Origin: Trachythela sp. YZ-2020
Lineage: Eukaryota > Cnidaria > Anthozoa > Malacalcyonacea > Clavulariidae
DNA length: 64,000 nt
NCBI GenBank assembly: GCA_016169945.1
Contig: JADLSH010000073.1
Location: forward strand, 1,798,001 to 1,862,000
Direction of reading: 5' to 3'
Part shown: one piece after another, positions 7,866-53,434 of the stretch
How the letters are laid out: the number at the start of each line of letters is the position of its first letter
Position numbering within the stretch: the stretch's first letter is position 1
Program-made: the position numbers and the translations under genes
The notes under the pieces: generated by a model
Database searches by the model: none
What the model saw: only the letters and a program-made list of their open reading frames with translations
Told to the model about the DNA's origin: nothing

Positions 7866-7989
7866 AAGCGAACAGACCGCCACCGAAACCACCAGGTTTT
7901 ATTTCTTCATCAAAATCAAACACGCAATTTCACAGCAACAACAACCACAGAGATCGGTTTTTGATAATAAACAATTTATCCGCGACGCC

Positions 7990-8561: not shown

Positions 8562-8590
8562 AAGAAGAGCAAAATGATTCAGAGATTTCC

Positions 8591-9968
8591 GTGCTTTATC
8601 AAAAAGCTTCAGACGAGATAGACGCAGCAGGTGACCCTGTGTGCTATTTTATTAAAAACGGAGTGTTGATGAGAAAATGGCGACCTTCAGATGTTTCTGT
8701 AGATGATGAGTGGGCGTTTCGATATCAAATCATAATTCCAAAACCTTATAAGTCTGAAATTCTTAGTTTGGCACATGATACCCCACTTTCAGGTCATTTG
8801 GGAATAAATAAAACGTTACAAAAAACAACTTCTCATTTCTATTGGCCAGGTGTTAGAAAAGACGTCGTTCAATTTTGTAAAACCTGTCACACATGTCAAA
8901 TTGTTGGTAAACCAAACCAAGTAATTCCTAAAGCACCACTAAAACCAATCCCAGCTTTCGAAGAACCATTTAGTCGATTCATGATTGATTGTGTCGGACC
9001 ACTTCCTAAAACAAAGAACGGCAACCAGTACTTATTAACGATTATGTGTGTTTCGACCCGATTTCCAGAAGCAATACCATTAAGAAATATTAAAGCGAAA
9101 ACAATCGTGCAAGCGCTGACAAAATTCTTTACGTTAGTTGGCCCTCCAAAATCTATTCAATCGGACCAAGGTTCAAATTTTATGTCTGCATTATTTCAAC
9201 AAGTCATGCACGATCTCGGCATCAAACAATTTCGATCGAGTGCTTATCATCCGGAAAGTCAAGGGGCACTAGAACGATTTCACCAAACTTTAAAAAATAT
9301 GATTAAGATGTATTGCCAGGATACCAAGAAAATTGGGATGAAGGCTCTGCTCGCGATTCTGTTCAGGAATCTTTAGGTTGTAGTCCATTTGAGCTTGTTT
9401 TCGAACATACCGTTAGAGGACCACTCAAACTTCTGAAGGAGAAGTTACTTTTAGAAGACGAAAATTCCTTAAATCTTTTATAGTACGTGTCGGATTTTCG
9501 CACAAAACTTACGAAGGCATGTGAATCGGCACGAGAAAACCTTAAGTCGGCCCAAAAGTGCATGAAGGATAAGGACGACAAAAATTCTGTAAAACGCAGT
9601 TTTCAGGCTGGTGACAAAGTACTTGCGTTCATTTGCATGCTAGGTATTTGGGTCCCTATAATGTGGAAAGTAAAGAGAATGAATTAAATTATATCCTTGC
9701 AACCCCAGATAGACGTAAGAAAAAACAGCTTTGCCATATTAATATGTTAAAACCGTATCACGAAAGAGAGAAAGTAGAGCAGTTGGTTAACGTAGTCAGC
9801 TCAGGAAGTGATAGTCATTCAACAGCTGAAGAGCTGGTAAACCTTTTTAACTTGTCTGAAACAACTAAACTGAGCAACTCTGATATTCTTCGACAACTGG
9901 ATTCAAAACTAACGCATCTCAACCCAAGTCAACGCGACGATATCCAGCAGCTCGTTCACGAATATTGA
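8591..9968 (+). pseudogene. Integrase of the Gmr1-like element (upstream of RT)
   Basis: The open frame at 8591-9376 holds an H2C2 zinc-binding region (SGHLGINKT ... FCKTCHTC) and a DDE core: FMIDCVGPLPKTKNGNQYL, then IQSDQGSNFMS, then HPESQGALERFHQT. Two further frames (9487-9687, 9633-9968) encode a C-terminal module with a GPYNVESKENE motif resembling the GPY/F domain, then an acidic linker. Frameshifts near 9340 and 9640 break the product. It ends about 50 bp before the RT frame on the same strand and between the same LTRs, so the INT-RT order is not due to a separate element. Confidence 0.85.
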
Positions 9969-10021
9969 AACCTATTCCCTGATATTCCTTCCCGAGCCAC
10001 CATGATTATCATATCCACGAT

Positions 10022-11285
10022 GTGGATGTTGGCGATGCGGCACCAGTCAAGCAACACCCCTATCGTCTTAACCCATCCAAACAAGAATACCTCGACCAAG
10101 AAGTACAATACCTCCTACAATACAATTTTATCGAACCGAGTCAAAGTTGTTGGAGTTCCCCATGCATTTTAGTTCCAAAACCCGATGGAAGTTACGCATG
10201 TGCACGGACTATCGAAAAGTAAACAACCCCACGAAGACAGACACATGAACGAAGACGTGAACAAAATCGGTAATGCAAATTACGTCTCGAAGTTTGACTT
10301 ACTGAAAGGGTTTTGGCAGATTCCTCTGAGTGAACGTGCGAAAGAGATATTGGCATTCGTCACACCACGTGGTCTGTACCAATATAAAGTTATGCCTTTT
10401 GGTATGAAGAACTCCCCAGCAACCTTCCAACGACTCGTTAATCGCCTCATCGCTGATATTGATGGTTGCGAAGCGTACATCGACGATGTTATAATCTACA
10501 GCGACACTTGGGAAGCACACCTATAAATTCTGCGAAAGTTATTTCTACGCCTAAGTGAAGCTAACCTCACAATTAATCTGGTGAACAGTGAATTTGGATG
10601 TGGTCATATCACGTACTTGGGGCATATTGTTGGTCAAGGTAAAGTTAAACCTATTAACGAAAAGATTGAAGCCATTTCTGCATTTCCCCAACCCTCAACA
10701 AGAAAGCAAGTTATGCGTTTCCTCGGCATGGCAGGATACTATAGAAAATTTTGCCCAAACTTCTCGTCTGTAAGTGAACCCCTAACTGAGCTTCTTCGAA
10801 AGAACCCCAAATTTGTTTGGACTGATTGTTGCCAGTTAGCATTTGAACGACTTAAAGCCCTTCTGCAAAGTGCTCCTGTTTTGTCGGCCCCAGATTTCAA
10901 CCGCCCCTTTAAGCTAGCCGTCGATGCAAGTAACATTGCTGCCGGAGCAGTACTATTGCAAGAAGATCAAGATGAGATCGTTCATCCGGTAGATTATTTT
11001 TCAAAGAAGTTCAATAACCATCAACGAAATTATTCTACCATTGAAAAAGAATGTCTTGCCCTCATCCTCGCGTTGCAACATTTTGACGTATATGTTACTT
11101 CACCCGTTGTTCCTCTCGAAGTGTTTAGTGATCACAGCCCATTAGTGTTCATCCACAAACTGAAGGACAAGAATCAACGTCTGTTACGTTGGAGCCTAAT
11201 CTTATCAGAATACAATATGAATATCCAACACATTATAAAAGGACAAGATAATCTGATTGCTGACTGTCTTCTAAGACCATTATAG
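10022..11285 (+). pseudogene. Reverse transcriptase-RNase H of the Gmr1-like element
   Basis: The RT begins with HPYRLNPSKQEYLDQEV and SSPCILVPKPDGSY. It is frameshifted near 10195, then continues through KFDLLKGFWQIPLSERA, FGMKNSPATFQ and the catalytic YIDD (10476-10487). A stop at 10524 precedes the thumb (YLGHIVGQGKVKP) and a long frame (10581-11285) with FLGMAGYYRKFCPNFS. RNase H motifs are KLAVDASNIAAGAVLLQ, TIEKECLALILAL and FSDHSPLVF. The frame ends 59 bp before the polypurine tract, so nothing follows RNase H. All residues of the YIDD box are intact despite three lesions. Confidence 0.9.
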
Positions 11286-14837: not shown

Positions 14838-15432
14838 CCTCCCCCCCTTAGCTTACCTTAGAGTATCTTAGCATACCTTAGCCTACTTTACATTACCTTA
14901 GCCTAACACACATTAGCTTATTAGACTACCTTAGACTGCTTTAAACTACCTTAGGGAATCTAAGGTACTCAAGGTCTACTAAGTGTTTCTAAGCAGTGCT
15001 GGAAAATGTCCGGCAGCGCCAGCAGCACCGCTGCCAGGAAATTTTTGACAAAACGTCTTCACAGGAAATTTTTATGTCTCACAGGAAATATTTGTCATTT
15101 TATATATCAAACAATAGATAATTAGCTTGTTTGTGATATAAAATAAAATTATAAGGCAGTCTAAGGGTATTATAAGGGTATTATAAGGGTATTATAAGGG
15201 TATTATATAGTGGTATTATAAGGGTATTATAAGGGGCTTATATAAGGGGCTTATAAGGGTATTATAAGGCAGGGTAAGGTAGTCTAAGTTATGCTAAGGC
15301 ACTCTAAGGTCGTCTAATGTAGGCTAAGGTACATTAAGGTAGTCAAAGATGGTCTAAGGTAAGCTAAGGTAGTCTCAAGTAGTCCAAGGTATGCTAATAT
15401 AGTCTAATGTAGGCTGAAGTAGTCTAAGGTAG
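14838..15432. repeat. CTAAGGTAG / CTACCTTAG minisatellite, left block
   Basis: Degenerate units of about 10 bp run first as TTAGACTACC-type (to ~14960) and then in the opposite orientation as CTAAGGTAGT-type (from ~15260). Between them is a short array of AAGGGTATTAT units (15165-15260). The same minisatellite resumes at 16820-17705 and 18725-18830. Confidence 0.8.
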
Positions 15433-16057
15433 TCTTAACAATTGGAGGGTTTTGTAGATAGAAAATTATTGAGTGTAAATTATATACATATATTAGACCT
15501 AACCAGGAACAGCTGCGAAAAATGCAACCACAGGTCCCTGGCAGGAATCGAATCTGCCGCCCTGCGATTCCGGTGCAGCGCTCTAACCAACTGAGCTACA
15601 GAGTCCAGTTGTCGAGTTCTAACCACAAGTTCATACATGTATATATACTAGGGTACTGCCATGTTAAGTTGTGCGTAAATATCTAGATTTTGTTGGCATC
15701 TCACTCGAATGAATAACAATTGGAGGGTTTTGTAGATGGAAAATTATTGAGTGTAAATTATATACATATATTAGACCTAACCAGGAACAGCTGCGAAAAA
15801 TGCAACCACAGGTCCCTGGCAGGAATCGAATCTGCCGCCCTGCGATTCCGGTGCAGCGCTCTAACCAACTGAGCTACAGAGTCCAGTTGTCGAGTTCTAA
15901 CCACAAGTTCATGTATATATACTAGGGTACTGCCATGTTAAGTTGTGGGTAAATATCTAGATTTTGTTGGCATCTCACTCGATTGAATAACAATTGGAGG
16001 GTTTTGCAGATGGAAAATTATTGAGTGTAAATTATATACATTTATTAGACCTAACAT
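15432..16057 (-). repeat. Tandem tRNA-like units, minus orientation (2.2 copies)
   Basis: The unit is about 280 bp. On the minus strand each full unit contains a tRNA-like segment (15529-15607; 15807-15885) with A box TAGCTCAGTTGG and B box GATTCGATTCC, followed by CAGCTGTTCCTGGTTAGGTC. The D and T arms can pair. The anticodon stem has a mismatch and position 33 is not U, so these are SINE heads or tRNA relics, not functional tRNA genes. Confidence 0.8.
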
Positions 16058-16821
16058 TTATTAGACAACTGGACTCTGTAGCTCAGTTGATTAGAGCGCT
16101 GCACCGGAAACGCAGGGCCGCAGATTCGATTCCTGCCAGGGACCTGTAGTTGCATTTTTCGTAGCTGTTCCTGGTTAGGTATAATAAATGTATATAATTT
16201 ACACTCAATACTTTCCATCTACAAAACCCTCCAATTGTTATTCAATCGAGTGAGATGCCAACAAAATCTAGATATTTACCCACAACTTAACATGGCAGTA
16301 CCCTAGTATATATACATGAACTTGTGGTTAGAACTCGACAACTGGACTCTGTAGCTCAGTTGATTAGAGCGCTGCACCGGAATCGCAGGGCCGCAGATTC
16401 GATTCCTGCCAGGGACCTGTAGTTGCATTTTTCGTAGCTGTTCCTGGTTAGGTATAATAAATGTATATAATTTACACTCAATACTTTCCATCTACAAAAC
16501 CCTCCAATTGTTATTCAATCGAGTGAGATGCCAACAAAATCTAGATATTTACCCACAACTTAACATGGCAGTACCCTAGTATATATACATGAACTTGTGG
16601 TTAGGACTCGACAACTGGACTCTGTAGCTCAGTTGGTTAGAGCGCTGCACCGGAATCGCAGGGCCGCAGGTTCGATTCCTGCCAGGGACCTGTAGTTGCA
16701 TTTTTCGCAGCTGTTCCTGGTTAGGTCTAATAAATGTATATAATTTACACTCAATAATTTTCCATCTACAAAACCCTCCAATTGTTATTCATTCGAGTGA
16801 GATGCCAACAAAATCTAGATA
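16058..16821 (+). repeat. Tandem tRNA-like units, plus orientation (3 copies)
   Basis: This is the same ~275-bp unit, now on the plus strand, head-to-head with the preceding array around 16045-16070. tRNA-like segments lie at 16071-16146, 16344-16419 and 16617-16692. The last has perfect pol III boxes (TAGCTCAGTTGG and GGTTCGATTCC). Neighbouring units differ by only a few bases. Confidence 0.82.
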
Positions 16822-17705
16822 AGGTAGTCTTAGCCTGCCTTAGACTACCTTAGACTTCATCAGGGTACCTTAGACTACCTTAGCTCAAGTTTTGACTAGT
16901 TTATAATACCTTAGATTACCTTAGATTACCTTAGGGTACCTTAGACCAGAGGTGGAAAAGTTTTTTTCTCCTGGGAGCCTGGGTTTCAGATTCAAAATTA
17001 ATAATTAAATTAATGAGGTTCAATGATCATTGATTGATTTTGACATTGGACTGATTGGAGTGTTGTTTCATGATATTTAGTGATGTTCAATTAGATATAG
17101 TGAATACAAAATGCATTACAATTACTAGTCTAAACTAGAGCATGCTCTAGTTTTGTTATTACGGATCAGTTCATTATGAACTTAAGGTATTTCTGTGAAA
17201 AATGTTCTGCAAAAGCTCAAATCCAAAAATATTTCTGGCAACTAGGTTCCCATGATCCGATACCTTTTCCACCTCTGCCTTAGATTACCTTAGAGTGCCT
17301 TAGCACACCTTAGATAGTCTAAGGTACCCTAAGGTAGGCTAAGGTAATCTAAGGTAGTCTAAGGTATGCTAAGATAGTTTAAGGTAGGCTAAGGTACTCT
17401 AATGTAGACTTAGCCTGCCTTAGACTACCTTCGACTACCTTATGGTACCTTAGCCTAACTTAGAGTTCCTTAGCATATTTTAGACTACCTTAAACTACTT
17501 TAGACTACCTTAGCCTACTTTAGGGAATCTAAGGTACCCTAAGGTAGGCTAAGGTAGTCTATAAATGTACCCTAGGGTAGTCTAAGGCAGGCTAAGGTAC
17601 GGTACGGTATGGTATGCTAAGGCACTCTAAGGTAGGCTAAGGTACACTAAGTTAGTCAAAAGCACACTAAGGTAGGCTAAGGTAGTCTAAGGTAGTCTAG
17701 CGTAC
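16821..17705. repeat. CTAAGGTAG minisatellite, right block, with unique insert
   Basis: Units such as CTAAGGTAGT and TTAGACTACC occur in both orientations. They are interrupted at about 16945-17275 by a non-repetitive stretch bounded by AGAGGTGGAAAAG and CTTTTCCACCTCT. Those are 13-bp inverted copies, so this insert may be a small TIR element of about 340 bp. Confidence 0.7.
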
Positions 17706-17860
17706 CCTAAGGTATCTCGAACGTAAGGTGCCAGTGTCGGTAGGGTAAAGCAAATACGGCGGTTGACAGTTGTGTAAAACTACCTGAAAAATACAATAAG
17801 AACTTCGACGTTTCGAGCAACGGTCCTTCGTCCGGAAGTTAGTAGAATGGGAATGAAAAT
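17705..17860 (-). repeat. Penelope-like terminal repeat, minus orientation
   Basis: On the minus strand the sequence reads GGACGAAGGACC ... GCTCGAAACGTCGAAGTTC, then TTTTTCAGGTAGTTTTACAC and a tail with AACCGCCGTATTTGC. The ACTTC-core-GAAAC-GTC-GAAGT layout resembles the type I hammerhead motif known from Penelope-like elements, but the first core box is CGGACGA instead of CUGANGA. No RT frame is attached. Confidence 0.5.
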
Positions 17861-18238
17861 TCAATCTGTGTCCCATTTCTGGTAGTAACGATAGCCGCAA
17901 AAGCCAAGAAATGTGTCTCATTTCTCAACTTGTCACCATTCATCCTCTCTGCATTAATGAGCGCCTCTCTCACATTTAACTCATATTTGTTTATGCATGC
18001 CATCAGCAGATACTCTACATCTCACCTTATCTCATATTTCATTCCTTATTTTCTGTCTTTCTTGCTTTGTTATTTTTGTTTGCTGCTCCTTATATGCTAC
18101 TATATTTTGTGATGTGATTTCCTTATTTTGTTTATGGGTTGTTTTTATTAAATCCATCTGATTGGTGTATTTTTTATCACGTGATCGCTTTTGTATTCAC
18201 TATAAAAGCACATGTTTTTGCCCGACCCATTCTACTAA

Positions 18239-18627
18239 GGGCCTGTTTATATGATCCCGTCTAGGCGGACAGGACGTTTCCATCCCGCCTAGCAGGGAAA
18301 CTCGCCTTGGCGGGATGGCGTGTTTATATGGAGAAAATACATTGCCGGGATGAAGCCAGTTCGGTGCTTGACGTCATATTTCCTTGCAGAAAAGGGATTT
18401 ACACATGCTCAGAAGAAAAGTTCATCCCGCCTGGCCAGGATAGAGTGTTTATATGGGAATTTTTCGTCCCGGCTAGGCGGGATCCCGGCAACAGATGTGG
18501 GATTCTGTCTAGGCGGGATAGAAGCGGGATCATATAAACACTCAATAGAATTTATATTACAAGCGGGATCTCTGCAACTTAACTGTCCCATCCCGCCTAA
18601 ATAAGCCGGTATCATATAAACAGACCC
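18239..18627. mobile_element. Harbinger-type MITE, 389 bp
   Basis: The ends GGGCCTGTTTATATGATCCC and (inverted) GGGTCTGTTTATATGATACC form 20-bp TIRs with two mismatches. TAA flanks both sides (18236-18238, 18628-18630), and removing the element restores a continuous ACTAACTTCC match to the surrounding repeat. A three-base TWA duplication and GG-starting TIRs are typical of PIF/Harbinger. The interior repeats GGCGGGAT motifs. There is no transposase. Confidence 0.82.
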
Positions 18628-18725
18628 TAACTTCCAGACCAAGGGCCTTCGCTCGAAACATCGAAGTTCTTAATTATTGTATTTTTCAGGTAGTTTTACA
18701 CAACAGTCAACAGCCGTACCCTGTA
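18628..18725 (+). repeat. Penelope-like terminal repeat, plus orientation
   Basis: This is the inverted partner of 17705-17860. It reads ACTTCCAGACCAAGGGCC, then TTCGCTCGAAACATCGAAG and TTTTTCAGGTAGTTTTACAC. The hammerhead core is further eroded (CAGACCA). Together the pair brackets 17861-18627 as two facing ends, interrupted by the MITE. Confidence 0.5.
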
Positions 18726-19300
18726 AAGGTAGTCTATATAAGGTAGTCTAAAGTATGCTAAGATAGTCTTAGGTAGGCTAAGGTAGTCTAAGGCAAGGTA
18801 AGGTAGTCTAATTTAGGCTTAAAAACCGACTGTTGAGCAACAAATTTTACAATCCATATAAACTTGAAAATACGATTATTTAAACGAAAAAATATGCATT
18901 TTTATTATAACATAAAAATATAATATGTCAGTACTAACCTTTATTGTCAATTTCTGAGTTATCCCTGAAACTCGCCGCTCTGACTTTCCAAATTAAGTTT
19001 TTCCTTTGGCTTCGTATAAAATACGGACTAAAATCATATTTGTCCTTTTTGTTTTTCATACCGATTTTATTTCGACTATTTCAAGTCCAAATTTTGAGCT
19101 AAATGGTCAAAAACCTTCTAACATCGTCGAACTATTGTTTCAAAGTCTCTGACAAAATTTTTTCATTGCTTTAGACAACAAAAGATAAAAAAACTCCCTG
19201 CAAAAGAGTATTTAGCTTCAAATTTTAGAGTTATGGCGGTTGTGTTTCTTGTCCAAACTCGTCAGCAAAACTCACGACGTGATTGGCCAACTTTCCCGCC
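18726..19300. other. Minisatellite remnant and unassigned interior
   Basis: CTAAGGTAGT units occupy 18726-18830. After that, about 470 bp of AT-rich sequence shows no recognised feature before the right subterminal repeats. Confidence 0.5.
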
Positions 19301-30344: not shown

Positions 30345-31592
30345 TTGAAACACTTTTCCTGCATCTTCGTGGCTAATCAAGTAACTGATCATATGGTATG
30401 CAATAATCTTTTCCCTACTGAACAATCAGCTTACAGAAGGCATCATAGCACTGAAACAGCTTTGTTAAGAGTGAAGAATGACATTCTAATGAACATGAAC
30501 AAACACGAAGTTACTCTCTTAGTACTGCTTGACTTAAGTGCAGCATTTGATACCATAGATCACGACATCTTACTAAATCGCTTGCGATCTATGTTAGGAA
30601 TATCTGGATCAGTCTTCGACTGGTTCTCGTCTTATTTGTCTGGAAGAACTCAAAATATCTGTATAGATGGTATCCAATCAGATGCATTCAGGGTGGAATT
30701 TGGTGTTCCTCAAAGTTCTTGTCTTGGCCCACTGTTGTTAATTATTTACGCAAGTAAACTGTTTGATATTGTTAAAGCTCACCTTCCTCATGCTCATGGT
30801 TACGCAGATGACTCCCAACTGTATCTCTCATTTAAATTAGACACATCTACTCAACAGCAGGAAGCCATTGCAGCTATGGAAGCATGTATTTTGGACATAC
30901 GTAATTGGATGACATCTGATAAACTTTTGCTGAATGACAGTAAGACAGAATTCTTGATAATTAGCACTCGACAACAACTAAGTAAGGTTGATATCTCGCA
31001 TATTACCATTGGGGATAATCAGATTATAGCTGCTTCTGTTGTTAAGAATCTTGGGTCTTGGTTCGATTCAAAAATGACCATGACCAATCATGTTGGGAAA
31101 CTTTGTTCATCAGGGTTCTATCATTTGTATAACATTCGACGAATTCGAAAATTCCTATCGCGTGAGTCTATTGAATCACTTGTTCATGCTTTTGTTTCAA
31201 GTCGACTGGACTATTGTAACAGTCTTTTGTTTGGCCTTCCAATAACCCAAATGAGTAAACTTCAGAGAATACAAAATGCTGCTGCAAGACTGATCTTCAA
31301 CGCTTCGAAATTTTTCCATATCTCACCATTGTTGGTTGATCTCCATTGGCTTCCCGTCAAATATCGGATTGATTTCAAGATTCTCGTTATAACTTTCAAA
31401 GCATTACATGATATGACTCCTGGATACATCAAGGAATTGTTAAACATCAAACAATCCTCTAATTACAATCTTCGATCAAATGACAGTATACTTTTGAAAC
31501 CGCCAACAGTGAAGACATTTGCTACGTTGGGTGACAGAGCATTTGCTTCGCCTTCACCTAAACTATGGAACATACTGCCTGCGGCAACTTGA
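30345..31592 (+). pseudogene. LINE B, RT domain (L2/CR1-like)
   Basis: A 415-codon open frame covers most of a LINE RT: NLFPTEQSAYRRHHSTETAL, LLVLLDLSAAFDTIDHDILL, WFSSYLSGRTQNICIDG, GVPQSSCLGPLLLIIYAS and catalytic YADD (30801-30812). It continues through SDKLLLNDSKTEFLII to the C-terminal SSRLDYCNSLLFGLP, LQRIQNAAARLI and LHWLPVKYRIDFKI blocks. The LSAAFDTIDH and C-terminal wording are those of the CR1/L2 group. The endonuclease is missing (5' truncation just before 30345) and the PQGS box reads PQSS. The frame ends slightly early through a frameshift near 31590. Confidence 0.92.
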
Positions 31593-32810: not shown

Positions 32811-32854
32811 AGAGTAAATATATATAGTCACTCGCATCTAGACTGCGTTACAAG

Positions 32855-32898
32855 CTGCACTGACGAGCCGTTGAACGGCGAAACATGCATGTCTGCAG
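32855..32898 (+). ncRNA. Type I hammerhead ribozyme, copy 1
   Basis: The order is: stem I CTGCA/TGCAG; core CTGACGA; stem II GCCGT/ACGGC with triloop TGA; core GAAA; stem III from palindrome CATGCATG; cleavage triplet GTC. All invariant hammerhead core positions are present. The segment is inverted relative to copies 2-4. Confidence 0.9.
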
Positions 32899-33077
32899 AT
32901 TTGACTATATATATCGTATTTATACATCATGCTCTTGCCCTCACCAAGGGCATGTGATACAATACTCAGACACATGCGCATCCAGACATGCGTGAAGTGT
33001 CTTGGGGCCACAAGGGAAGTGAGCTTTTGCATTATAGTTATATTGCATTATATATATATATATATATATATTCAAAT

Positions 33078-33121
33078 CTGCAGACATGTATGTTTCGCCG
33101 TTCAACGGCTCGTCAGTGCAG
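33078..33121 (-). ncRNA. Type I hammerhead ribozyme, copy 2
   Basis: It has the same fold and core as copy 1. Stem III reads ACATACATGT, so one base breaks the palindrome while the outer pairs are kept. Predicted cleavage lies between plus-strand positions 33083 and 33082 (after the C of GUC). Confidence 0.9.
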
Positions 33122-33351
33122 CTTGTAACGCAATCTAGATGCGAGTGACTTCGTATTTATACACCATACGCTTGCTCTCCCAAGCGCATGTGGTACAATA
33201 CTCAGACACATGCGCATCCAGACATGCGTGAAGTGTCTTGGGGGCAGAGTGCTCAAACGACCACAAGGGAAGTGAGCTTTCGCATTATCGCTTATAGCCA
33301 CCAATTAACCTCACAGAGTGCTCAACAACACAAGTGAAGGAGCTTATATAG

Positions 33352-33385
<34 letters not shown>

Positions 33386-33389
33386 AAAT

Positions 33390-33433
33390 CTGCAGACATG
33401 CATGTTTCGCCGTTCAACGGCTCGTCAGTGCAG
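33390..33433 (-). ncRNA. Type I hammerhead ribozyme, copy 3
   Basis: Identical in its 44 nt to copy 1 (opposite strand). Predicted cleavage lies between plus-strand positions 33395 and 33394. The distance to copy 2 is 312 bp, which defines the natural monomer. Confidence 0.92.
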
Positions 33434-33613
33434 CTTGTAACGCAGTCTAGATGCGAGTGACTTCGTATTTATACACCATACTCTTGCCCTCACCAAGCGC
33501 ATGTGGTACAATACTCAGACACATGCGCATCCAGACATGCGTGAAGTGTCTTGGGGCCAGAGTGCTCAAACGACCACAAGGGAAGCGAGCTTTTGCATTA
33601 TAGCTTATAGCCA

Positions 33614-33657
<44 letters not shown>

Positions 33658-33759
33658 AGGAGAGAATGTTCTCGAGTGATGTATTTCATAATTTCCAGAT
33701 CATATTACCGAGTGAACAATAACACAACATAATATATATATATATATATATAGTCAAAT

Positions 33760-33803
33760 CTGCAGACATGCATGTTTCGCCGTTCAACGGCTCGTCAGTG
33801 CAG
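33760..33803 (-). ncRNA. Type I hammerhead ribozyme, copy 4
   Basis: Identical to copy 3. The distance to copy 3 is 370 bp because about 80 bp of non-repeat sequence (33655-33735) separates two (TA)n tracts there. It is the most upstream ribozyme for a minus-strand transcript. Confidence 0.92.
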
Positions 33804-34080
33804 CTTGTAACGCAGTCTAGATGCGAGTGACTTCGTATTTATACACCATACTCTTGCCCTCACCAAGCTCATGTGGTACAATATTCAGACACATGCGCAT
33901 CCAGACATGCGTGAAGTGTCTTGGGGCCAGAGTGCTCAAACGACCACAAGGGAAGTGAGCTTTTGCATTATAGCTTATAGCCACCAATTAACCTCACAGA
34001 GTGCTCAACAACACAAGTGAAGGAGCATATATATATATATATATATGTACATACATATACGTGTAGGTTTATATTAGGTC

Positions 34081-34256
34081 TACGAAACGCAAAGAGTGCT
34101 CGACAACATATAGTTAGAGCAAATTATAGATTTTCGCTTATCTCAAAACTGGATTGTGATAGATGGTCCAGGAAACGCAAAGAATGCTCGACAACATATA
34201 GTTAGAGCAAATTATAGATTTTCGCTTATCTCAAAACTGGATTGTGATATAGATTG
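34081..34256 (+). repeat. 88-bp tandem duplication
   Basis: GAAACGCAAAGAGTGCTCG at 34084 recurs as GAAACGCAAAGAATGCTCG at 34172. The following bases, through TTTCGCTTATCTCAAAACTG, are identical. It directly follows the hammerhead array and shares its AGAGTGCTC motif, so it may derive from a related repeat. Confidence 0.85.
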
Positions 34257-35626: not shown

Positions 35627-36445
35627 TCATAATAAAATACATAGCTTCTTGCGAGAACCAGCAACTTTAATTTTGTATGTCGACCCGAAATGTTCTCCCC
35701 GAATTTCCTGCGCGTGTTGGCGATAATTCTTTGCACTTTCAAGTTCGCCTGCATCCTGATACAGTAAGGCTAAGTTGTTGTAAGAACTAGCAACGTTAAT
35801 ATGGTTTGGTCCTAACTGTTTTATTCGAATTTCAAGTGCCCGTTGATGATAATCTTTAATATCTTCCAGTTCACTTTTTCTCCGACACACATTACCTAGG
35901 TTGTTGTAAGAAGCAGCAACGGCAGTATGGTTTGGTCCTAACTGTTTTATTCGAATTTCAAGTGCCCGTTGATGATAATCTTTAGCTTTATCCAGTTCAC
36001 CTTCATCCTGGCACACATCACCTAGTTTGTTGTAAGAACGAGCAACGTCAGTATGGTTTGGTCCTAACTGTTTTATTTTAATTTCAAGTGCCCGTTGATG
36101 ATAATCTTTAGCTTCTCCCATTTCACCTTTATCCTCACACACTAAACCTAAGTTGTTGTAAGAAGTAGCAACGGCAGTATGGTTTGGTCCTAACTGTTTT
36201 ACTTTAATTTCAAGTGCCCGTTGATGATAATCTTTAGCTTCTCCCAGTTCACCTTTCTCCTGGCACACATTACCTAGGTTGTTGTAAGAAGCAGCAACGT
36301 CAGTATGGTTTGGTCCTAACTGTTTTATTTGAATTTCAAGTGGCCGGTGATGATAATCTTTAGTTTTATCCAGTTCACCTTCATTCTGGCACACATTGCC
36401 TAGGTTGCCGTAAGAAGCGGCAACGTCAGTATGGTTTGGTCCTAA
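35627..36445 (-). pseudogene. NLR-like gene, C-terminal TPR part beyond the TAG
   Basis: In the same frame as the main open frame and directly after its TAG, 272 codons continue the TPR array: six more 42-residue repeats, each around LGPNHTDVAASYNNLGNVCQ. The last degenerates (LGPNHINVASSYNNLALLYQ, then EIRGEHFGSTYKIKVAGSRK) and ends in a normal stop. The sequence is free of other lesions. It is either an untranslated tail left by a recent nonsense mutation, a polymorphic allele or a sequencing error. The first internal Met (36394) is not a likely start. Confidence 0.8.
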
Positions 36446-39400
36446 CTATTTTATTTTAATTTCAAGTGCCCGTTGATAATAATCTTTAGCTTCTTCCAGT
36501 TCACCTTCATCCCCGCACACAATACCTAGGTTGTTGTAAGAAGCAGCAACGTCAGTATGGTTTGGTCCTAACTGTTTTATTTGAATTTCAAGTGCCCGTT
36601 GATGATAATCTTTAGCTTCTTCCAGTTCACCTTTACCCCGACACACGACACCTAGGTTGTTGTAAGAAGCTGCAACGTCAGTATGGTTTGGTCCTAACTG
36701 ATTTATTTTAATTTCAAGTGCCCGTTGATAATAATCTTTAGCTTCTTCCAGTTCACCTTCATCCCCGCACACAATACCTAGGTTGTTGTAAGAAGCAGCA
36801 ACGTCAGTATGGTTTGGTCCTAACTGTTTTATTTGAATTTCAAGTGCCCGTTGATGATAATCTTTAGCTTCTTCCAGTTCACCTTCCTTCTGGCACACAT
36901 TGCCTAGGTTGCCGTAAGAAGCGGCAACGTCAGTATGGTTTGGTCCTAACTGATTTATTTTAATTTCAATTGCCCGTTGATAATAATCTTTAGCTTCTTC
37001 CAGTTCACCTTCATCCCCGCACACAATACCTAGGTTGTTGTAAGAAGCAGCAACGTCAGTATGGTTTGGTCCTAACTGTCTTATTTTAATTTCAAGTGCC
37101 CGTTGATGATAATCTTTAGCTTCTTCCAGTTCACCTTTACCCCGACACACGACACCTAGGTTGTTGTAAGAAGCAGCAACGTCAGTATGGTTTGGTCCTA
37201 ACTGTTTTATTTGAATTTCAAGTGCCCGTTGATGATAATCTTTAGCTTTATCCAGTTCACCTTCATTCTGGCACACATTGCCTAGGTTGCCGTAAGAAGC
37301 GGCAACGTCAGTATGGTTTGGTCCTAACTGTTTTATTTGAATTTCCAGTGCCCGTTGATGATAATCTTTAGCTTTATCCAGTTCACCTTCATTCTGGCAC
37401 ATATTGCCTAGGTTGCCGTAAGAAGCGGCAACGTTAGTATGGTTTGGTCCTAACTGTTTTATTTTAATTTCAAGTGCCCGTTGATGATAATCTTTAGCTT
37501 TATCCAGTTCACCTTCATCCAGGTACACATTGCCTAGGTTGCCGTAAGAAGCGGCAACGGTAGTATGGTTTGGTCCTAACTGTTTTATTTGAATTTCCAG
37601 TGCCCGTTGATGATAATCTTTAGCTTTATCTAGTTCACCTTCATGCTCGCACACATTGCCTAGGTTGCAGTAAGAAGCGGCAACGTCAGTATGGTTTGGT
37701 CCTAACGTTTCTTTGCGAATATTAAGTGCCTTATGTAAATAGTTTTTTGCTTCTTGGAGTTCACCTAATTTTTTATTTAATATACCGAGTTGGTCGTAAA
37801 TATCAGCCACATGAAGATTTTCCTTCCAGCCTTTCCAAATTTGAAGATTTGATTTTAGGAATTCCATAGACAGCTCAAACTCGCAATATTGATGTAAAAT
37901 GTTCGCAAAAAACAGGTATACTTCAGAAATTCTAGTTTTCTCAAAGTCTAAACTTACTGAATTTAACGCATGCTCTGGAAATAATTTGTTAATATCTGTG
38001 TGGAATGTTTTCAAATGTGGGATCAATTTGTTTTTATCTTCTCTATCTCTGAAGTAAAAAAGTATTTTTACAACTTCGTGAACTATACATTTCCCATTAA
38101 CATGACATTGTGTTCCTTCGTGTCCATTGGGAGTATTGCTCTGCGTAAAATTGTCCATTTCAGATCGTTTGCAATGGCAAAATGACTTAACGGCTTCATG
38201 AACAACACGATGTAGACGGATATCGCGCTCTTCATTTTCAACCGGAATGAACAACGAACAATCAATTATTGCAAGACAGATATCTTCTGCATCTATCTTT
38301 TCATCTTGTTGCCGAATGAATTTGACAATAAGATCAAGTGGTAGTGGTTCAAAAGATATCAGGGAGAAAAGTTGGAATGCGTGTTTCAAAATTATATTAC
38401 TTTCTGCACATTTTTGAACAGCTAAAAACACAGCAGCGGACATGGTGGACGAATATGCTGAATTCATCTTGCGAAGACGTTCTTCTGTTAATTCTCTTTT
38501 ACCTTTTTCTAACTTGCGTAAATAGTCTTGCCACGTAAAATCAGGAGAACAATTTGGCTCGATGACTTGTCTCATGTACACAGCAGCCGCGGCCATTGCC
38601 AGGGGTTGGCTATCCAACGTCTCTGCAACTTCATCTAACAACGGGTCACTGGCGTCAGTTTTTGATAACAGGGCAAGAAGCTTGCGACATTCTCGCTTAT
38701 TCATACCGAGACTTAGTGAAACATGTTTAGTGAACAAACTATCAGGTGGGACAGAAGTTCTGCTTTGTGTTGTTAAAATAATTTGGCCATTATTCCAAAC
38801 TTCGTCGCCCATCTGAGGCAGTAGAGGGGAAATGTTGGCCAGATTTTCCACATTGTCTACTATAATCCACCACCTCTTCCAATTCTTAATTCTAGTGGTT
38901 ATTTGTGATCTTAAATCTTTGATCTTCTTATCTTTTGGTTTGGATGAATTCACAATATGTTCCAATGTACTTTCATTGCAGTTTAGACGTCGACAAAAAT
39001 CTTGATATGAGTATAGAAGAGAATCTAAATCTTTTCCGTCTATTGTCATCACAAATGTTGTTTCGGTTTGCCAATTTACACCTTTGTAAATATCATCGCA
39101 AACTTGTCTGGCGAGTTGAGATTTTCCACTTCCAGGATTTCCAGAAATATAGAGATATGTAAGTTTACCGTCGTTATCGCTGTACAACTTTTGAAGGTCT
39201 TGACCTATTTCACGTACTTTATCAGAACGGTAAACGACTTCGTGTACCGGCTTGGAAGGTAGAACTTGAAACGATTTGTAAAGGTTTCTCTCAACTTTAA
39301 TTCGAACGACTTCATTGGTTGGAAGTCCCAAGGCTTTTAATGCATTTTCAACGCGAGTTGTCATGGTTTGAAAGTCTCTATCGGCGAGTTTCCCTTCAGA

Positions 39401-39778
39401 ATGCATAATGTCATTTCGTATTTTTCTAAGATCATCGACTTGGCTCTTTATTGTTGGATTAAGGCTTGCTTGACCAATCGAAGTAGAGTAAAGAATTGCG
39501 TCAAAGAGCACTGAACAATCCCACTGATTTGTATCTCCATCTTGAAATTTTGCCTGGTAGGCATTCTTGTTTGGTCTTCTTCGTGTTTTTTCCAGATGAA
39601 AGAGCTGCTGACCACTTACGTTGGTGTCATCCCATGCCCCAAAGGAAGGCTGGTAACGATTGTTCCACTCTTGTTTAAAAATTGTTCTCAATCCTTTACT
39701 TACAACATCATTCACAATTTTTCCCATACAAATATAATTTTGTTCCTGCTCGTTTTCCCATGGTAGTATAGTTGACAT
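36446..39778 (-). CDS. NLR-like protein: HEPN-like, STAND NTPase, TPR array
   Basis: An 1110-codon single-exon frame. Residues ~20-150 form a helical domain with RNDIMH at 121-126 (R-X4-H, the HEPN signature; compare DZIP3-like HEPN). Residues ~185-400 are a STAND/NB-ARC NTPase: Walker A GNPGSGKS (213-220), Walker B WWIIVDNVEN (303-312), sensor-like IILTTQSR (333-340) and SQPLAMAA (390-397). A helical/winged region follows, with LHRVVHEAVKSF. From ~650 onward are TPRs of 42 residues, kinesin-light-chain type, with ten LGPNHT motifs before a TAG at 36446-36448 that replaces the CAG found in other repeats. A role as a cytosolic immune sensor is inferred from architecture. An upstream non-coding exon is possible. 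Confidence 0.88.
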   Translation of the reverse strand: MSTILPWENEQEQNYICMGKIVNDVVSKGLRTIFKQEWNNRYQPSFGAWDDTNVSGQQLFHLEKTRRRPNKNAYQAKFQDGDTNQWDCSVLFDAILYSTSIGQASLNPTIKSQVDDLRKIRNDIMHSEGKLADRDFQTMTTRVENALKALGLPTNEVVRIKVERNLYKSFQVLPSKPVHEVVYRSDKVREIGQDLQKLYSDNDGKLTYLYISGNPGSGKSQLARQVCDDIYKGVNWQTETTFVMTIDGKDLDSLLYSYQDFCRRLNCNESTLEHIVNSSKPKDKKIKDLRSQITTRIKNWKRWWIIVDNVENLANISPLLPQMGDEVWNNGQIILTTQSRTSVPPDSLFTKHVSLSLGMNKRECRKLLALLSKTDASDPLLDEVAETLDSQPLAMAAAAVYMRQVIEPNCSPDFTWQDYLRKLEKGKRELTEERLRKMNSAYSSTMSAAVFLAVQKCAESNIILKHAFQLFSLISFEPLPLDLIVKFIRQQDEKIDAEDICLAIIDCSLFIPVENEERDIRLHRVVHEAVKSFCHCKRSEMDNFTQSNTPNGHEGTQCHVNGKCIVHEVVKILFYFRDREDKNKLIPHLKTFHTDINKLFPEHALNSVSLDFEKTRISEVYLFFANILHQYCEFELSMEFLKSNLQIWKGWKENLHVADIYDQLGILNKKLGELQEAKNYLHKALNIRKETLGPNHTDVAASYCNLGNVCEHEGELDKAKDYHQRALEIQIKQLGPNHTTVAASYGNLGNVYLDEGELDKAKDYHQRALEIKIKQLGPNHTNVAASYGNLGNMCQNEGELDKAKDYHQRALEIQIKQLGPNHTDVAASYGNLGNVCQNEGELDKAKDYHQRALEIQIKQLGPNHTDVAASYNNLGVVCRGKGELEEAKDYHQRALEIKIRQLGPNHTDVAASYNNLGIVCGDEGELEEAKDYYQRAIEIKINQLGPNHTDVAASYGNLGNVCQKEGELEEAKDYHQRALEIQIKQLGPNHTDVAASYNNLGIVCGDEGELEEAKDYYQRALEIKINQLGPNHTDVAASYNNLGVVCRGKGELEEAKDYHQRALEIQIKQLGPNHTDVAASYNNLGIVCGDEGELEEAKDYYQRALEIKIK

Positions 39779-40726: not shown

Positions 40727-41095
40727 TAAAGCGATTCCTGCCAGATGGTCTAAGGTTTCATTTTTCCCCAACTGCACCTGGCTATGCCTAAAAATGTATA
40801 TAAATTTTCGTTCTAATATTCCATCCATAAACACCATGAACTATTATTCCAACCGAACGAGATGCCGAGGAAAATCTTAGTATTTACCCATATACCATAT
40901 ACTGGCATCCCTCCCATATATATACACGAACTTGCGGTTAATGTTGAGCAACTTGATTCTGTAGCTGAGTTGCTTAGAGCACTGCACCGGAATCGCAGTT
41001 CCGCAGGTTTGAATCCTGCCAGAGGGCCTAAAGTTGCATTTTTCGCAACTGCTCCTGGCTAGGTCTAAAAATGTATATAAATTTTCGTTCGAATA
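40727..41095 (+). repeat. Tandem tRNA-like units (diverged, 1.3 copies)
   Basis: A complete tRNA-like segment at 40955-41029 (TAGCTGAGTTGC; GGTTTGAATCCTGCC) is followed by GTTGCATTTTTCGCAACTGC and TCCTGGCTAGGTC. The partial unit at 40727-40800 lies 279 bp earlier at the CCTGCCAGA position. That spacing equals the unit length in the 15.4-16.8 kb arrays, so the family amplifies as tandems in more than one place. Confidence 0.75.
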
Positions 41096-48009: not shown

Positions 48010-49228
48010 ATGAAGAAACAACAAACAGAATTGGATGCGAAGCTCAAGGCGTTGAACTTCAGAATCAAACGCAGCGACGAAGTACTCGGGCATGGCGATA
48101 GAACAGCCGTAGACAGACACCGTAAGTCAATTACAACAATTGTAAGTACAATTATTATTCTAAAGGGTTCCATTGAAGAAGCCAAATTCGCGCAGAGCGA
48201 ATCTGTTGAATCAATAGAACAATGGTCTACAGATATAGACAATTAAATTGCACTGGCTGACAATTGTACGCAGAAACTTGCCAATTTCGTGAAGGAAATT
48301 GATCGAAACGCAAAAGAGATTGAGTTGAAGCATACACAAGAACAGACAATGCAATTTGAAAAGCAATTACTAGAGCAAAAGCTAGAAGCCGCACTGAAAC
48401 AGAAACAAATGGCTGAGAAAGGCGTGCGATTACCTAAACTTAGCATAGCTAAATTTAATGGGAAACCGCATGATTGGGTGCGTTTCAAAGGGCAGTTTGA
48501 GGCGATGGTCGACTCGCAAAACGTTCCACCGATAACAAAGTTTTCCCACCTTAAAGAGCTCGTTGACCCAAGCATTAGATGCGCGATTGATTGTCTCCCA
48601 TTTACTGACGAAGGTTATTCTCGTGCCTTGAAATATTTAGAAGATAGATATGGACACCCTAGCGAAGTAGCTGGTTCATACGTAGTTAGTCTCTTAGAAT
48701 CACCAACCATTAGTGAAAGGGACGTATCCAAAATCCATCGATTTTACGAACAGCTATTGTTTAACATTGAGAGTTTGGAAACACTGGGGAAACTTAATGG
48801 TATTGAAGGCACGGCCTATTACGTGTTGCGCAAACTTGAAGTCATTAAAGCAGAGCTTATAACTCATGTTAAGACCGATTGGAGGGATTGGACATTCAAG
48901 GATTTGCTTGAATCCTTGAAAAAATGGACGGAGACAAACATAGTTAATACTAAAGTTACCAAGCGCAGTAGATTTGGAAGGGATTTCAACAATCAGTCCG
49001 CGGGTGGGCGAGCATTTGGGTCACGCGATCATGGGATAAATTGCGTGTATTGCGAAAGTACAGACCATAGAGCCAAAACGTGTGACAAGGTGTTGACACC
49101 ACTCGAAAGAAAGAAAATCCTCGCCAAAAAGCGTTTATGTTTCAATTGCGCAAGTGGTCAGCATCACGCGAATTCGGGTAAGAGTAAGATTTGTTGGACG
49201 ACATCATTCCTCAATATGCGAGAGTAAA
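48010..49228 (+). pseudogene. BEL/Pao Gag
   Basis: One frame carries one TAA (48244-48246). Residues before it are helical and charged. After it come a coiled coil (QEQTMQFEKQLLEQKLEAAL) and the Pao Gag core (DUF1759-like): LPKLSIAKFNGKPHDWVRFK, FEAMVDSQ and FSHLKELVDP. Two zinc knuckles follow, CVYCESTDHRAKTC and the start of CFNCASGQHHAN. The last is cut by a frameshift near 49190, where the pol frame takes over. Confidence 0.85.
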
Positions 49229-52200
49229 AGCCCTGGTGAAACAAACGACGGAATAGGTTGCACAGCCAGCTGTAAAACATCTGTAATTCATCCTGTAGTG
49301 TTAATTAACATAAACGGACAGACATTCCGCGCATTGCTCGTCAGTGGCGCCAGTCACTCATATGTTTCCTCAACCTTAATCGAACAGATTAAAGCGCGCT
49401 CTGTTAAAACTAGTACACACCGAATAGCTACCTTAATGAGCACAACTACGTCTAAAGTTGAAGAATACGATTTGTCTCTAGAAGCAATAAAATGGAAATT
49501 TGCTATCAACGCCAGAGTTACAAAAATAAACAAACGTGAATTATTAACTTTGGATAATCCTAAGTACGAACAGCTTTTAACTAAATACCAGCACTTGAGA
49601 GGTGTTACCATTGACGACATGACCGATGACAGACGATTACCTGTACATCTTATAATTGGCGCTAATGAATATGCCAAAATTCGAACGCAAACCCAACCGC
49701 GCGTTGGTAGACAAGGCGAACCTGTCGCTGAATTAACCCGTTTTGGCTGGGCTATCATGGCACCTGGAGACGAAGTCAATCTTACAAACTGGTTTCTCGC
49801 ATTTAACTCCACCAGCGATTATGACCGTTTGTGCACTCTTGACGTTCTTGGTCTAGAGGATTCACCCACCGGCGACCAGGGGGAGGTCTACAAAGAATTT
49901 CGCGAGCAGCTGACCCGCCATCCAGTCGAAGGTTGGTACGAGACCAACCTAACGTGGAAAGGAAATCACCCATCACTACCACCCAATCGCTCTGGTAGCC
50001 TCACTCGCATGAAGACCCAAGTGAATAAATTGAGACGAGACGGGAACTTCGAAGTGTATGATGCGATCATTCGAGAACAACTTGCCGAAGGGGTTGTTGA
50101 AAAGGCACCCGAGAAGGTCGTGGGAAGAGAATGCTACGTGCCACATCGAGCCGTGATCCGCGACGAAGCCGAAAGTACCAAGATGCGAATCGTTTACGAT
50201 TGCTCTGCGAAAGCCGACCGAAATTCCCCTTCGCTCAACGACTGCCTAGACCCAGGCCCCCCTCTACAAAACAAATTATGGAATGTGCTAGTTCGTGGGA
50301 GATTTCACCCTGTATGTTTAACTGGAGACTTACGCAAAGCCTTTCTTCAAGTTCGAATTAGAAACGGTGACCATGATGCTCTTCGGTTCCACTGGTTAAA
50401 AAGTCTCGATTCGAATGAAGTAGAGATATTTCGATTTACTCGTGCGTTGTTTGGTCTGGCACCTTCACCCTTCTTACTTGGTGGTGTTATCGAGCAACAT
50501 CTCATTGGTTGGGAATCAAGACATCCTGAAAGTGTAGAAGAAATCCGACGCAGTTTATACTTAGATGATCTCATCTCAGGTGGCACAACTGTTAACGAAG
50601 TACAAAAGCTTAAACAAGACGCAATTGAGATTTTCTACGACGCCAGTTTTCACCTTCATAAATTGCACTCCAATGTTCCAGAATTAGAGACTACGGAGCC
50701 GAATACCGGAAGTCCTGCTGATATGGAACCCTCATTTGTTGACCAACAGTTGAACACTGCTCAGTCTAATCAGTGTAACAAAGCAAACATTCTTGGCTTG
50801 CCTTGGGATTGCAAGCAAGATACTTTGAGCGTGACGTTTCCAGAGAAGATCATTGAAGAACCAACGAAATGAGGGATTCTTGGAAAATTGGCGAAGATCT
50901 ATGACCCTCTTGGTTTGGTTTCTCCGGTCACTCTCGAAGGCAAGTTAATTTATCGGAACGCCTGCGAGTTGAAGATGAGTTGGGCTACACCAATACGCGA
51001 GCCACTGTTAAAGGAATGGCTGAAGTGGGAAGGTTGCTTACCCGAGCGAATAACCACCGACCGTGCTTTGGTCCCGCATTAAGAGCCCATTGAAGCAGTG
51101 GAGCTACACTCGTTTGGTGATGCCAGTGGCCGTGGTGTTTGTGCTGCAGTATACGCAGTTGTTCGACAGCAATCTGGAGTTAGTCAAGGTCTTGTCGCAG
51201 CTAAATCGAGAGTAGCGAAACATGGTTTAACTATTCCTAGATTGGAATTGGTTGCTGGGCATATGGCGGTCAACCTCGTCCAAAACGTGCGAGAAGCAAT
51301 CGTGGGCTTTCCTGTAACCGGAGTGTACTGTTGGCTTGATAGTACAGTCGCTCTCCACTGGATCTGTGGGAATGGGGAGTACCGCCAATTTGTTGCCAAC
51401 CGAATTCGGAAGATACAAACACATGATGTTGATGCTTGGAGACATGTACCCACAGCCCAGAATCCTGCAGATCTCGGTAGTCGTGGTGGACCTGTCAATG
51501 ATGTGCAACTCTGGTGGCACGGCCCTGTGTGGTTACCTTCTACCGAATCATGGCCTGAGAATCTAGTGACCAATGAGACCGCAGAATCTGCTGCCGAATC
51601 TAAGATTATCCAATCTGCTCTTGCCACCGTTGAAGATGAAAATGATGTATTCGATGCGTTGCTAGAAAAATATGATCTACCCACTACGTTGCGCGTTTGT
51701 GCATGGATGACGAGGTTTGTGCAGAATTCCCTGGGAAAGTCAGAGATCTACGGCTCTCTTACCGCGGAAGAAATGGAGCGACGAAGAACCTGGTGGATAC
51801 TAAGAGAACAAATCCGTGCGAAGGCTCATCCCAAGTTTGTTGTCGACAGCGTCCAACTGAATCTACAAAGGAATTCAGCAGGAATTCTCGAGTTCCGTGG
51901 TCGTATTCAAGGAGTTTATCCAATGTATCTCTCACATATTGGAACATTTGCAGAGAAATTAGTAGCACAAGCCCATATCGACACCTTACACGGTGGTATG
52001 CTGCTTACCATGGCGAAAATCCGCGTGCGATTTTGGATTCCGCGTCTGCGAAGCTTAGTGAGACGAGTCATTGGACGGTGCTACAGATGTAAACGATTTC
52101 AAGCCCAAGCCCTTTCGAATCCACCACCTGGTTTGTTACCCACTACGCGTACTGAAGGTTCGAGAGCGTTTGAATCGGTTGACGTGGACTTTGCAGGTCC

Positions 52201-53434
52201 TATTCGCTATCGTCGTAAAGTGAAAGTGGAGTCGAAAGCTTATCTTGTCCTCTATGCCTGTTGCTTGACTCGAGCCTTGTTCTTAGAAGTGTTGCCTAGC
52301 CTCGAAACGACCGAGTTCATCGGAAGTTTGAAAAGATTTATTGCACGGCGTGGTCGTCCTAAACGAATCTACTCAGATAATGGGAAAACCTTTGTTGCGG
52401 CAGCTCGATGGATTAGAAGGGTTCAGCGAAACGAGAAGCTGAACAAATTTCTCTCTGAGCACTCCATTGCCTGGTCCTTTAACCTCAGCAGAGCTCCATG
52501 GTGGGGCGGACAGTTTGAACGGTTAATAGGGGTGTTCAAGTCCTCGTTTTACAAGTCTATTGGTAATGGTTTACTTACATGGCCAGAATTGTCCGAAGTT
52601 GTGTTGGATGTCGAAGTGGCTCTCAACAACCGTCCCCTAAGTTACCTGGAAGAAGACATGCAACTACCAGTGTTGACGCCGGCCTCATTTTTGTTCCAGG
52701 GGCCCCTCTTGCTACCAGAGCAAGATCCAGATGTCCTGGAAAACAAAGATTTACGAAAGCGCGGGAAATACCTAAGAAAGTGTAAGGATCACTTGTGGTC
52801 TCGTTGGACCGCAGAATACCTTCGCGCATTGAGAAAACGAGACTGTATGAAAAACGGTAAAACGGAATCGAAGTTGCAAGTTGGAGACGTTGTAGTTATC
52901 AAGGCTCAAGAAAGAAATCGTGGGAAGTGGCCTTTGGGGATTGTCGTAAGCCTATTCAATGGAAAAGACGGTATCGTGCGAGCTGTGAAGTTACGGGCAG
53001 GTAAAGATCATTTAGAACGTCCAATTCAGCATCTCTACCCGTTAGAGTTATCGTGCGATCGTTCCGAGAAGGAAGTCTTACGCGCTGATGCACCGGTGTT
53101 CCGACCTAAACGTGTGGCTGCTGTACAAGCGAACGAGAAAATCAAGAGACAAGTTGCTATGGAAGAGAGCTTAGTGACTGAACTTATATACCTTTATTCT
53201 TATATATTATTTATTAATATTTTTATATTGACATTGTTGTGTTATTTGACGAGACGTTCCTCCTTTTATGTCTTCCTTCTTCCACATAACACACATTGTC
53301 GAAGAAATAATCGCCTTAATATAGTGTTACCTAATGTTTTATCTAGATCTAATTATATACGAACTACGTCACTAGTTAATACGTTATTAAACTCATATAA
53401 TATTGTTGTGTTAAAAGATAAGGAGTCTGCATGA
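49191..53434 (+). pseudogene. BEL/Pao Pol (protease, RT, RNase H, integrase)
   Basis: The single frame has TGA at 50870 and TAA at 51080. The A17 protease region reads ALLVSGASHSYVSSTLIEQ; the catalytic Asp position is Val (codon 49340-49342). RT: VPHRAVIRDEAESTKMRIVY, LTGDLRKAFLQVRI, FGLAPSPFLLGG and catalytic YLDD (50558-50569). RNase H: HSFGDASGRGVCAAVYAV, LDSTVALHWI and PTAQNPADLGSRGG. Integrase: RCYRCKRFQ, ESVDVDFAGP, IYSDNGKTF and WWGGQFERLIG give D, D and E. C-terminal LQVGDVVVIKAQERNRGKWP resembles DUF5641. The frame runs into the 3' LTR before stopping. Confidence 0.92.

Follow-up and report, generated by a model that had tools for sequence, protein, structure and literature searches.

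A hammerhead-ribozyme retrozyme family in the coral Trachythela sp. and a candidate hairpin link to Penelope-like elements

Retrozymes without long terminal repeats (LTRs) have been described in metazoans, among them Acropora millepora and other cnidarians, as RNAs of ~170–400 nt with units of about 225 and 245 nt in A. millepora; a unit of 150–450 bp and tandem copies are among their defining traits, as are tertiary loop 1–loop 2 contacts in the HHR (hammerhead ribozyme) and efficient self-cleavage (PMC7229834). For Penelope-like elements (PLEs), in vitro work on an Anolis element has shown that, with AT-rich DNA as target, reverse transcription starts inside the element's own RNA. It does so at two neighbouring positions, an AC-rich stem loop being the most frequent place, and the sequence that separates these positions corresponds to the genomic ‘tail’ (PMC11167929). 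Here we describe a repeat with type I hammerhead ribozymes (HHRs) at positions 32811–34046 of a 64,000-nt stretch (the window) of contig JADLSH010000073.1 of the coral Trachythela sp. YZ-2020, together with its family in the 578 Mb assembly containing the window. Copies of this repeat end at a prevailing site directly beside a bulged hairpin that is also carried by PLEs of the same genome, which suggests that PLE enzymes probably mobilize it.

A retrozyme family and a hairpin shared with PLEs

The family unit is 281–282 nt long, contains one type I HHR and occurs in dispersed, partly tandem copies. Because its size, its ribozyme and this layout match the architecture given in PMC7229834, the repeat is, on sequence grounds, a metazoan non-LTR retrozyme, an already known kind of element, and the term ‘retrozyme-like’ used in an initial annotation of the window was well chosen. 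The unit of ~312 nt proposed there was not: spacings of 312 and 370 bp between the window ribozymes include (TA)n tails. A BLAST search of the genome with one window unit gave at least 101 matches, and pattern searches allowing up to two mismatches found 1427 direct unit-to-unit junctions and 2373 (TA)n-tailed ends genome-wide, with 0 for either reversed-pattern control. Thousands of copies are thus dispersed in the genome, and genuine 281-nt head-to-tail arrays exist at loci outside the window; chains hold one to eight hits. The GC content of one unit (47.7%) lies under the <50% stated in the text of PMC7229834 and above the <45% of its Figure 1 legend. LTRs are absent as judged by eye, no open reading frame (ORF) of at least 120 aa is listed at 32811–34046, and the 281-nt unit encodes neither reverse transcriptase (RT) nor endonuclease. 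In 125 aligned unit pieces, where members of one array are not independent, substitutions amount to 0.69% in the catalytic core vs 2.49% elsewhere in the unit.

The ends of the insertions were read from 62 chains built from BLAST hits in 33 loci (the window and L031–L062), of which L038/L049, L040/L041 and pieces of L046/L051 share flanks and are duplicates. Copies end at an internal UAUAUA, 12–13 nt beyond the site of HHR cleavage, from where the sequence continues into (TA)n. Exactly TGCAGATTTGACTA followed by (TA)n with n ≥ 4 terminates 34 of the 62 chains; 46 end in (TA)n under a pattern tolerating small differences, and three more (in L045, L047 and the minus strand of L061) read as near variants of the usual 3' end. 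The 5' ends are variable, 21/61 lying at unit positions 60–95 and 13/61 at positions 5–13, and the 5' flank is TA in 36/61. As read from these ends, a fixed 3' end with variable 5' ends is the pattern of retrotransposition, with one prevailing RT start beyond the ribozyme cleavage site. Linear cleaved RNA therefore could not supply this end, and the template would have to be ligated or uncleaved.

Loci L061 and L062 hold a divergent subfamily (76–80% identity), in which the HHR stem II of L061 has undergone a compensatory change from GCCGU/ACGGC to GGCGU/ACGCC; the L061 start site, ACTATTTACGCTC, has no long TA run, yet one copy still ends in (TA)n. In L038 and L049 a retrozyme chain joins PLE family C across 7 nt common to both, possibly by a template switch within one reverse-transcription event.

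Just 3' of the start site, the retrozyme carries a hairpin, SL1, of the form GCTC-CTTCACTTGTGTTG-TT-GAGCAC, and a second hairpin, SL2, lies further along the unit. At PLE 3' ends of this genome the order is GCTC, a short stem, a loop, a stem, a 2-nt YY bulge and GAGCAC. Several PLE families with HHRs and a GIY-YIG endonuclease carry this bulged hairpin, its pairing being supported by compensatory changes, and the outer stem and UU bulge of the retrozyme hairpins fit the PLE type. The pattern GCTC-N8-26-GAGCAC occurs 194 times in the fetched loci (158 matches are the retrozyme's own and 36 are others) vs 0, 3, 3, 5 and 8 times in Markov sequence. For 14 non-retrozyme hairpins, all distinct, 99% of cells are paired in the fold, and three pairs show changes on both sides. 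The score is 0.358, against 0.150 ± 0.029 for shuffled and at most 0.069 for slid alignments; the arms were aligned without loops and fixed to one register, an objection that the slid control answers in part. When 25 distinct hairpins were taken as non-retrozyme, three or more inner pairs formed in 16 with the 2-nt bulge and in none with any other register tried, while the remaining nine were read by eye as three tRNA pieces, four unfiltered retrozyme SL1 variants, one nested match and one changed PLE hairpin. Nine of 11 hairpins on a genome-wide list, some of the same types as before, also fit.

Among retrozyme copies GAGCAC is near-invariant, with 0.21% substitutions in SL1 and 0.50% in SL2. 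The pattern GCTCT..GAGCACT with (TA)6 following it at 15–45 nt occurs 1088 times genome-wide on the plus strand (controls 0) and 5320 times on the minus strand, a number inflated by several TA phases per place. In viral contigs, neither PLE relatives nor the hairpin with (TA)n were found.

The PLEs themselves end in (TA)n either before the hairpin or roughly 27–48 nt after it, and retrozyme and PLE 3' ends alike sit just before the hairpin. This two-site pattern appears similar to that of the Anolis PLE, the retrozyme using mostly the first site. Loci with both a PLE protein match and an HHR core contain hairpins of types A (L038), B (L046, L067), C (L044, L042, L054), D (L045) and G (L066). 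Type E has an HHR core, with no protein match in hand; for type F, protein and HHR are found in copies that end before the hairpin (L063–L065) and the hairpin in another copy (L031). Other hairpins occur without a PLE protein match or HHR core. The HHR core pattern is present in five of five PLE 3' ends chosen by their protein, and neighbouring PLEs have a GIY-YIG endonuclease domain. Pfam and NCBIfam did not recognize the PLE proteins, for which a structure model was used instead, and searches of PDB sequences with them gave nothing useful; a precomputed PF26215 is listed in the protein database for many of their relatives. In pieces of L046, on which Pfam is silent, FDV..FYPSI and YRDDGL were seen by eye, possible motifs of a telomerase-like RT.

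The locus in the window

Four exact 44-nt type I HHR motifs are present in the window, three on the minus strand at spacings of 312 and 370 bp and one inverted on the plus strand. All have CUGACGA, GAAA and GUC, with stem I CUGCA/UGCAG and stem II GCCGU/ACGGC. The initial annotation had reported these four segments, the two spacings and the minus-strand orientation of the tandem three, and a pattern search agrees on each count. A pattern of core plus stems I–III is found four times (one plus, three minus) vs 0 in 40 first-order Markov windows, and a loose core pattern four times vs a shuffle mean of 0.69, no shuffle of 100 reaching four. In an Rfam search of the window, no hammerhead family reached its gathering score. 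At relaxed thresholds Hammerhead_3 (cut-off 48.5) matched the four sites with 18.5–19.2 bits, RAGATH-1 (cut-off 56.3) matched three of them with 19.6–22.6 bits, and Hammerhead_1 was absent from the results; Rfam at curated thresholds alone would miss these ribozymes. The annotation had taken a sub-threshold covariance score as the mark of an ordinary satellite, and the scores are indeed sub-threshold, which is outweighed by the copy number, the lower substitution of the core and the dispersal. A match to MIR810 (99.8 bits, gathering 170) was regarded as an artefact that arises where copy C and the inverted fragment oppose each other.

The locus had been described as a tandem repeat, whose (TA)n boundaries might denote a distinct family. 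As its sequence reads, the ‘array’ is instead a chain of separate, partly 5'-truncated insertions into (TA)n, starting beside a PLE fragment, and the (TA)n tracts represent either tails at the 3' ends of insertions or the targets of insertion. The minus-strand order is two PLE family C 3' ends, (TA)n, copy A, (TA)n, 78 nt of other DNA, (TA)n, copy B, (TA)n, copy C, (TA)n, fragment D and the inverted fragment E; these 78 nt belong, besides (TA)n, to the 370-bp interval. The features are as follows.

34077–34249, minus: two 88-bp copies of the PLE family C 3' end, without an HHR core here; hairpin intact at 34096–34120, altered in the copy at 34184
34028–34045: (TA)n separating copy A from the PLE fragment, probably the site into which copy A inserted
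33753–34033, minus: copy A, a single complete turn of the unit (281 nt), running from ACTATATA site to ACTATATA site; 3' end 33753
34001–34026, minus: SL1 of copy A (GCTC...TTGAGCAC)
33932–33960, minus: SL2 of copy A
33836–33844, minus: GTATAAATA, possible TATA box (putative); also 33466–33474, 33154–33162 and 32917–32925
33760–33803, minus: HHR of copy A, type I; predicted cleavage between 33765 and 33764
33733–33752: (TA)n 3' tail of copy A
33617–33654: (TA)n on the 5' side of copy B
33383–33616, minus: copy B, 5'-truncated at unit position 60
33562–33590, minus: SL2 of copy B
33390–33433, minus: HHR of copy B, type I; predicted cleavage between 33395 and 33394
33355–33382: (TA)n 3' tail of copy B, adjoining copy C
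33071–33357, minus: copy C, almost one complete turn, an insertion within the (TA)n tail of copy B
33318–33343, minus: SL1 of copy C
33249–33277, minus: SL2 of copy C
33078–33121, minus: HHR of copy C, type I; one-base difference in the stem III loop
33049–33070: (TA)n 3' tail of copy C
32914–33042, minus: fragment D, unit positions 67–213, without HHR; abuts fragment E
32826–32905, plus: inverted fragment E, with HHR, the usual 3' end and a short TA run
32855–32898, plus: HHR of fragment E, type I

Elsewhere in the window, six tRNA-like copies lie at 15533–16690 and 40958–41023, three of them in a 273-bp tandem repeat (16064–16821) and two on the opposite strand; they are probably a tRNA-derived SINE or tRNA-like repeat. 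Dense 10-bp repeats of the type CTTAGACTAC / TAAGGTAGTC surround them at 14846–18819, and a comparable tRNA-like sequence lies behind a retrozyme in L050. A large tetratricopeptide (TPR)-repeat gene at 35627–39778 (minus) has 15 copies of a 126-bp internal repeat, and its nearest named relatives are octocoral proteins; among 120 relatives listed for the 1109-aa repeat protein of the window, the named organisms are the octocorals Dendronephthya gigantea, Paramuricea clavata and a Xenia. Adjacent large ORFs at 48289–53434 (plus) resemble a retroelement polyprotein (protease, RT and integrase-like, labelled by eye), and further retroelement-like ORFs, also labelled by eye, lie at 6610–11285 and 30345–31592.

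Proposed copying and its alternatives

We consider it probable that PLE RT/endonuclease acting in trans copies retrozyme RNA, as circles or uncleaved, from beside the hairpin into (TA)n targets. This proposal builds on what can be read directly: the motifs, the unit, the fixed 3' end, (TA)n, the shared hairpin and the PLE ends. The retrozyme RNA is predicted to cleave itself between GUC and UGCAG. The PLE-encoded RT/GIY-YIG endonuclease would recognize the hairpin GCUC...YYGAGCAC (SL1), and copying would begin at ACUAUAUA, directly 5' of SL1, on (TA)n DNA cut by the endonuclease. The RT would then read through the HHR and continue on the RNA, linearly or in a circle, over anything from a fraction of a unit to several units, the other end being joined at TA or other microhomology. 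Such copying would leave 5' truncations of variable extent and a (TA)n-tailed 3' end fixed at 12–13 nt beyond the cleavage site; more than one unit copied would give 281-nt head-to-tail arrays, and insertions into each other's tails would give chains like that of the window. What we infer is that the retrozyme is transcribed, that its RNA is cleaved and serves as a circular template, and that a PLE enzyme binds the hairpin and does the copying. The circular template is the least certain step because unprocessed RNA served the Anolis PLE as dominant substrate, HHR cleavage being dispensable (PMC11167929).

That result is one of several that weigh against the proposal. The inner stem of the retrozyme hairpin is weaker than that of PLEs, with one or two contiguous pairs, beyond which a 2x2 internal loop is read by eye. 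The SL1 GCTC arm is as variable as the rest of the unit (2.27% substitutions), the SL2 GCTC arm has 5.1% indels, and two of the 11 genome-wide hairpins do not pair. The loci behind the 62 chains were chosen with a query containing TA tracts; 13 of these chains have other 3' ends, including joins to another retrozyme piece, and the 5' flank is non-TA in 25/61. Besides the joins, L051 and L052 have ends directly beyond SL1 (that of L052 is also a join), and L051 has one directly beyond SL2; two ends at unit position 197 share their flank, one is truncated by the edge of its locus, and the rest are single ends at other positions. Neither the unit nor the circle folds into a complete HHR at minimum energy, tertiary contacts being outside the energy model. 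Finally, the PLE neighbourhood of the retrozyme is a bare count: all five (TA)≥6 tracts of the 64 kb and both pattern-found PLE marks sit at this locus.

A substantial minority possibility is that PLE-driven insertion starts from multimeric read-through transcripts, linear and uncleaved, instead of circles, with copying independent of the HHR. Existing arrays could yield multimeric transcripts, and 118 variants distinguish units within an array (nine arrays summed, some pairs of arrays being duplicates); 71 of them recur in another array, which is expected if mixed arrays are copied. However, 106 of the 118 occur in a single unit of their array, which fits units that started out identical, as after the copying of one circle; variation in the HHR core is lower than elsewhere in the unit, and the 13/61 chains starting at unit positions 5–13 are near whole turns, although TA microhomology is also a possible cause. 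It is rather unlikely that the hairpin is a relic, the retrozyme having arisen from a PLE 3' end by deletion and being moved now by a LINE or another (TA)n-favouring element. Retrozymes have been proposed as reduced PLEs in a review (PMC11722881), and TTGACTATATAT-GCTC of the retrozyme is similar to TTAACTATATTAT-GCTC of PLE family F; the near-invariance of GAGCAC and the position of both kinds of 3' end just before the hairpin speak against a relic.

Satellite DNA spread by unequal crossing-over, with HHRs as passengers, would account for head-to-tail arrays of up to eight hits per chain. Against it stand the thousands of dispersed sites, the single prevailing 3' end, the variability of the 5' ends and the (TA)n tails, and we rejected it, as very improbable, on dispersal and end structure. 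Chance motifs or an algorithmic artefact, which Rfam scores under gathering might suggest, have a negligible probability given 0 in 40 Markov windows and thousands of copies.

Returning to PLE-driven copying, a wider generalization seems plausible, if slightly short of an even chance: animal retrozymes may be parasites of PLEs by means of one hairpin that places the RT start 12 nt past the ribozyme junction, so that only ligated or uncleaved RNA is copied and circles give rise to arrays, (TA)n perhaps reflecting telomerase-like copying of UAUAUA. A link between PLEs and retrozymes by a specific RNA element and insertion site is new as far as we searched the literature, mostly in listings, and bears on a gap named in PMC7761336. 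It is drawn from the sequence of one genome. A candidate motif with compensatory changes among PLE-type hairpins and a matching insertion footprint make the PLE hypothesis directly testable, and the hairpin offers a search handle for pairs of autonomous and non-autonomous elements in other animals.

Comparison with described elements

The Trachythela family resembles metazoan non-LTR retrozymes in its short non-coding units, type I HHR, dimers to multimers and cnidarian host (PMC7229834), and its unit of 281–282 nt fits their size range while differing from the units of about 225 and 245 nt in A. millepora. The fixed 3' end in (TA)n and the hairpin shared with PLEs, known here from sequence, are not mentioned for metazoan retrozymes in the portions of PMC7229834 drawn upon. 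With plant LTR retrozymes it has in common that these are HHR-processed non-autonomous retroelements with proposed circular RNA intermediates; the plant elements differ by their LTRs, primer-binding site and polypurine tract (PBS/PPT), type III HHR and 4-bp target site duplications (PMC4918200, PMC7761336). Unlike PLEs, retrozymes are devoid of protein-coding sequence, possess a full stem III and lack the pseudo-LTR (pLTR)-ORF-pLTR organization, and the target here is (TA)n. Like Penelope/Poseidon PLEs, the Trachythela elements have an HHR near the end, an internal RT start in a stem-loop region, two alternative ends (the optional ‘tail’) and AT-rich targets (PMC11167929, PMC3846280).
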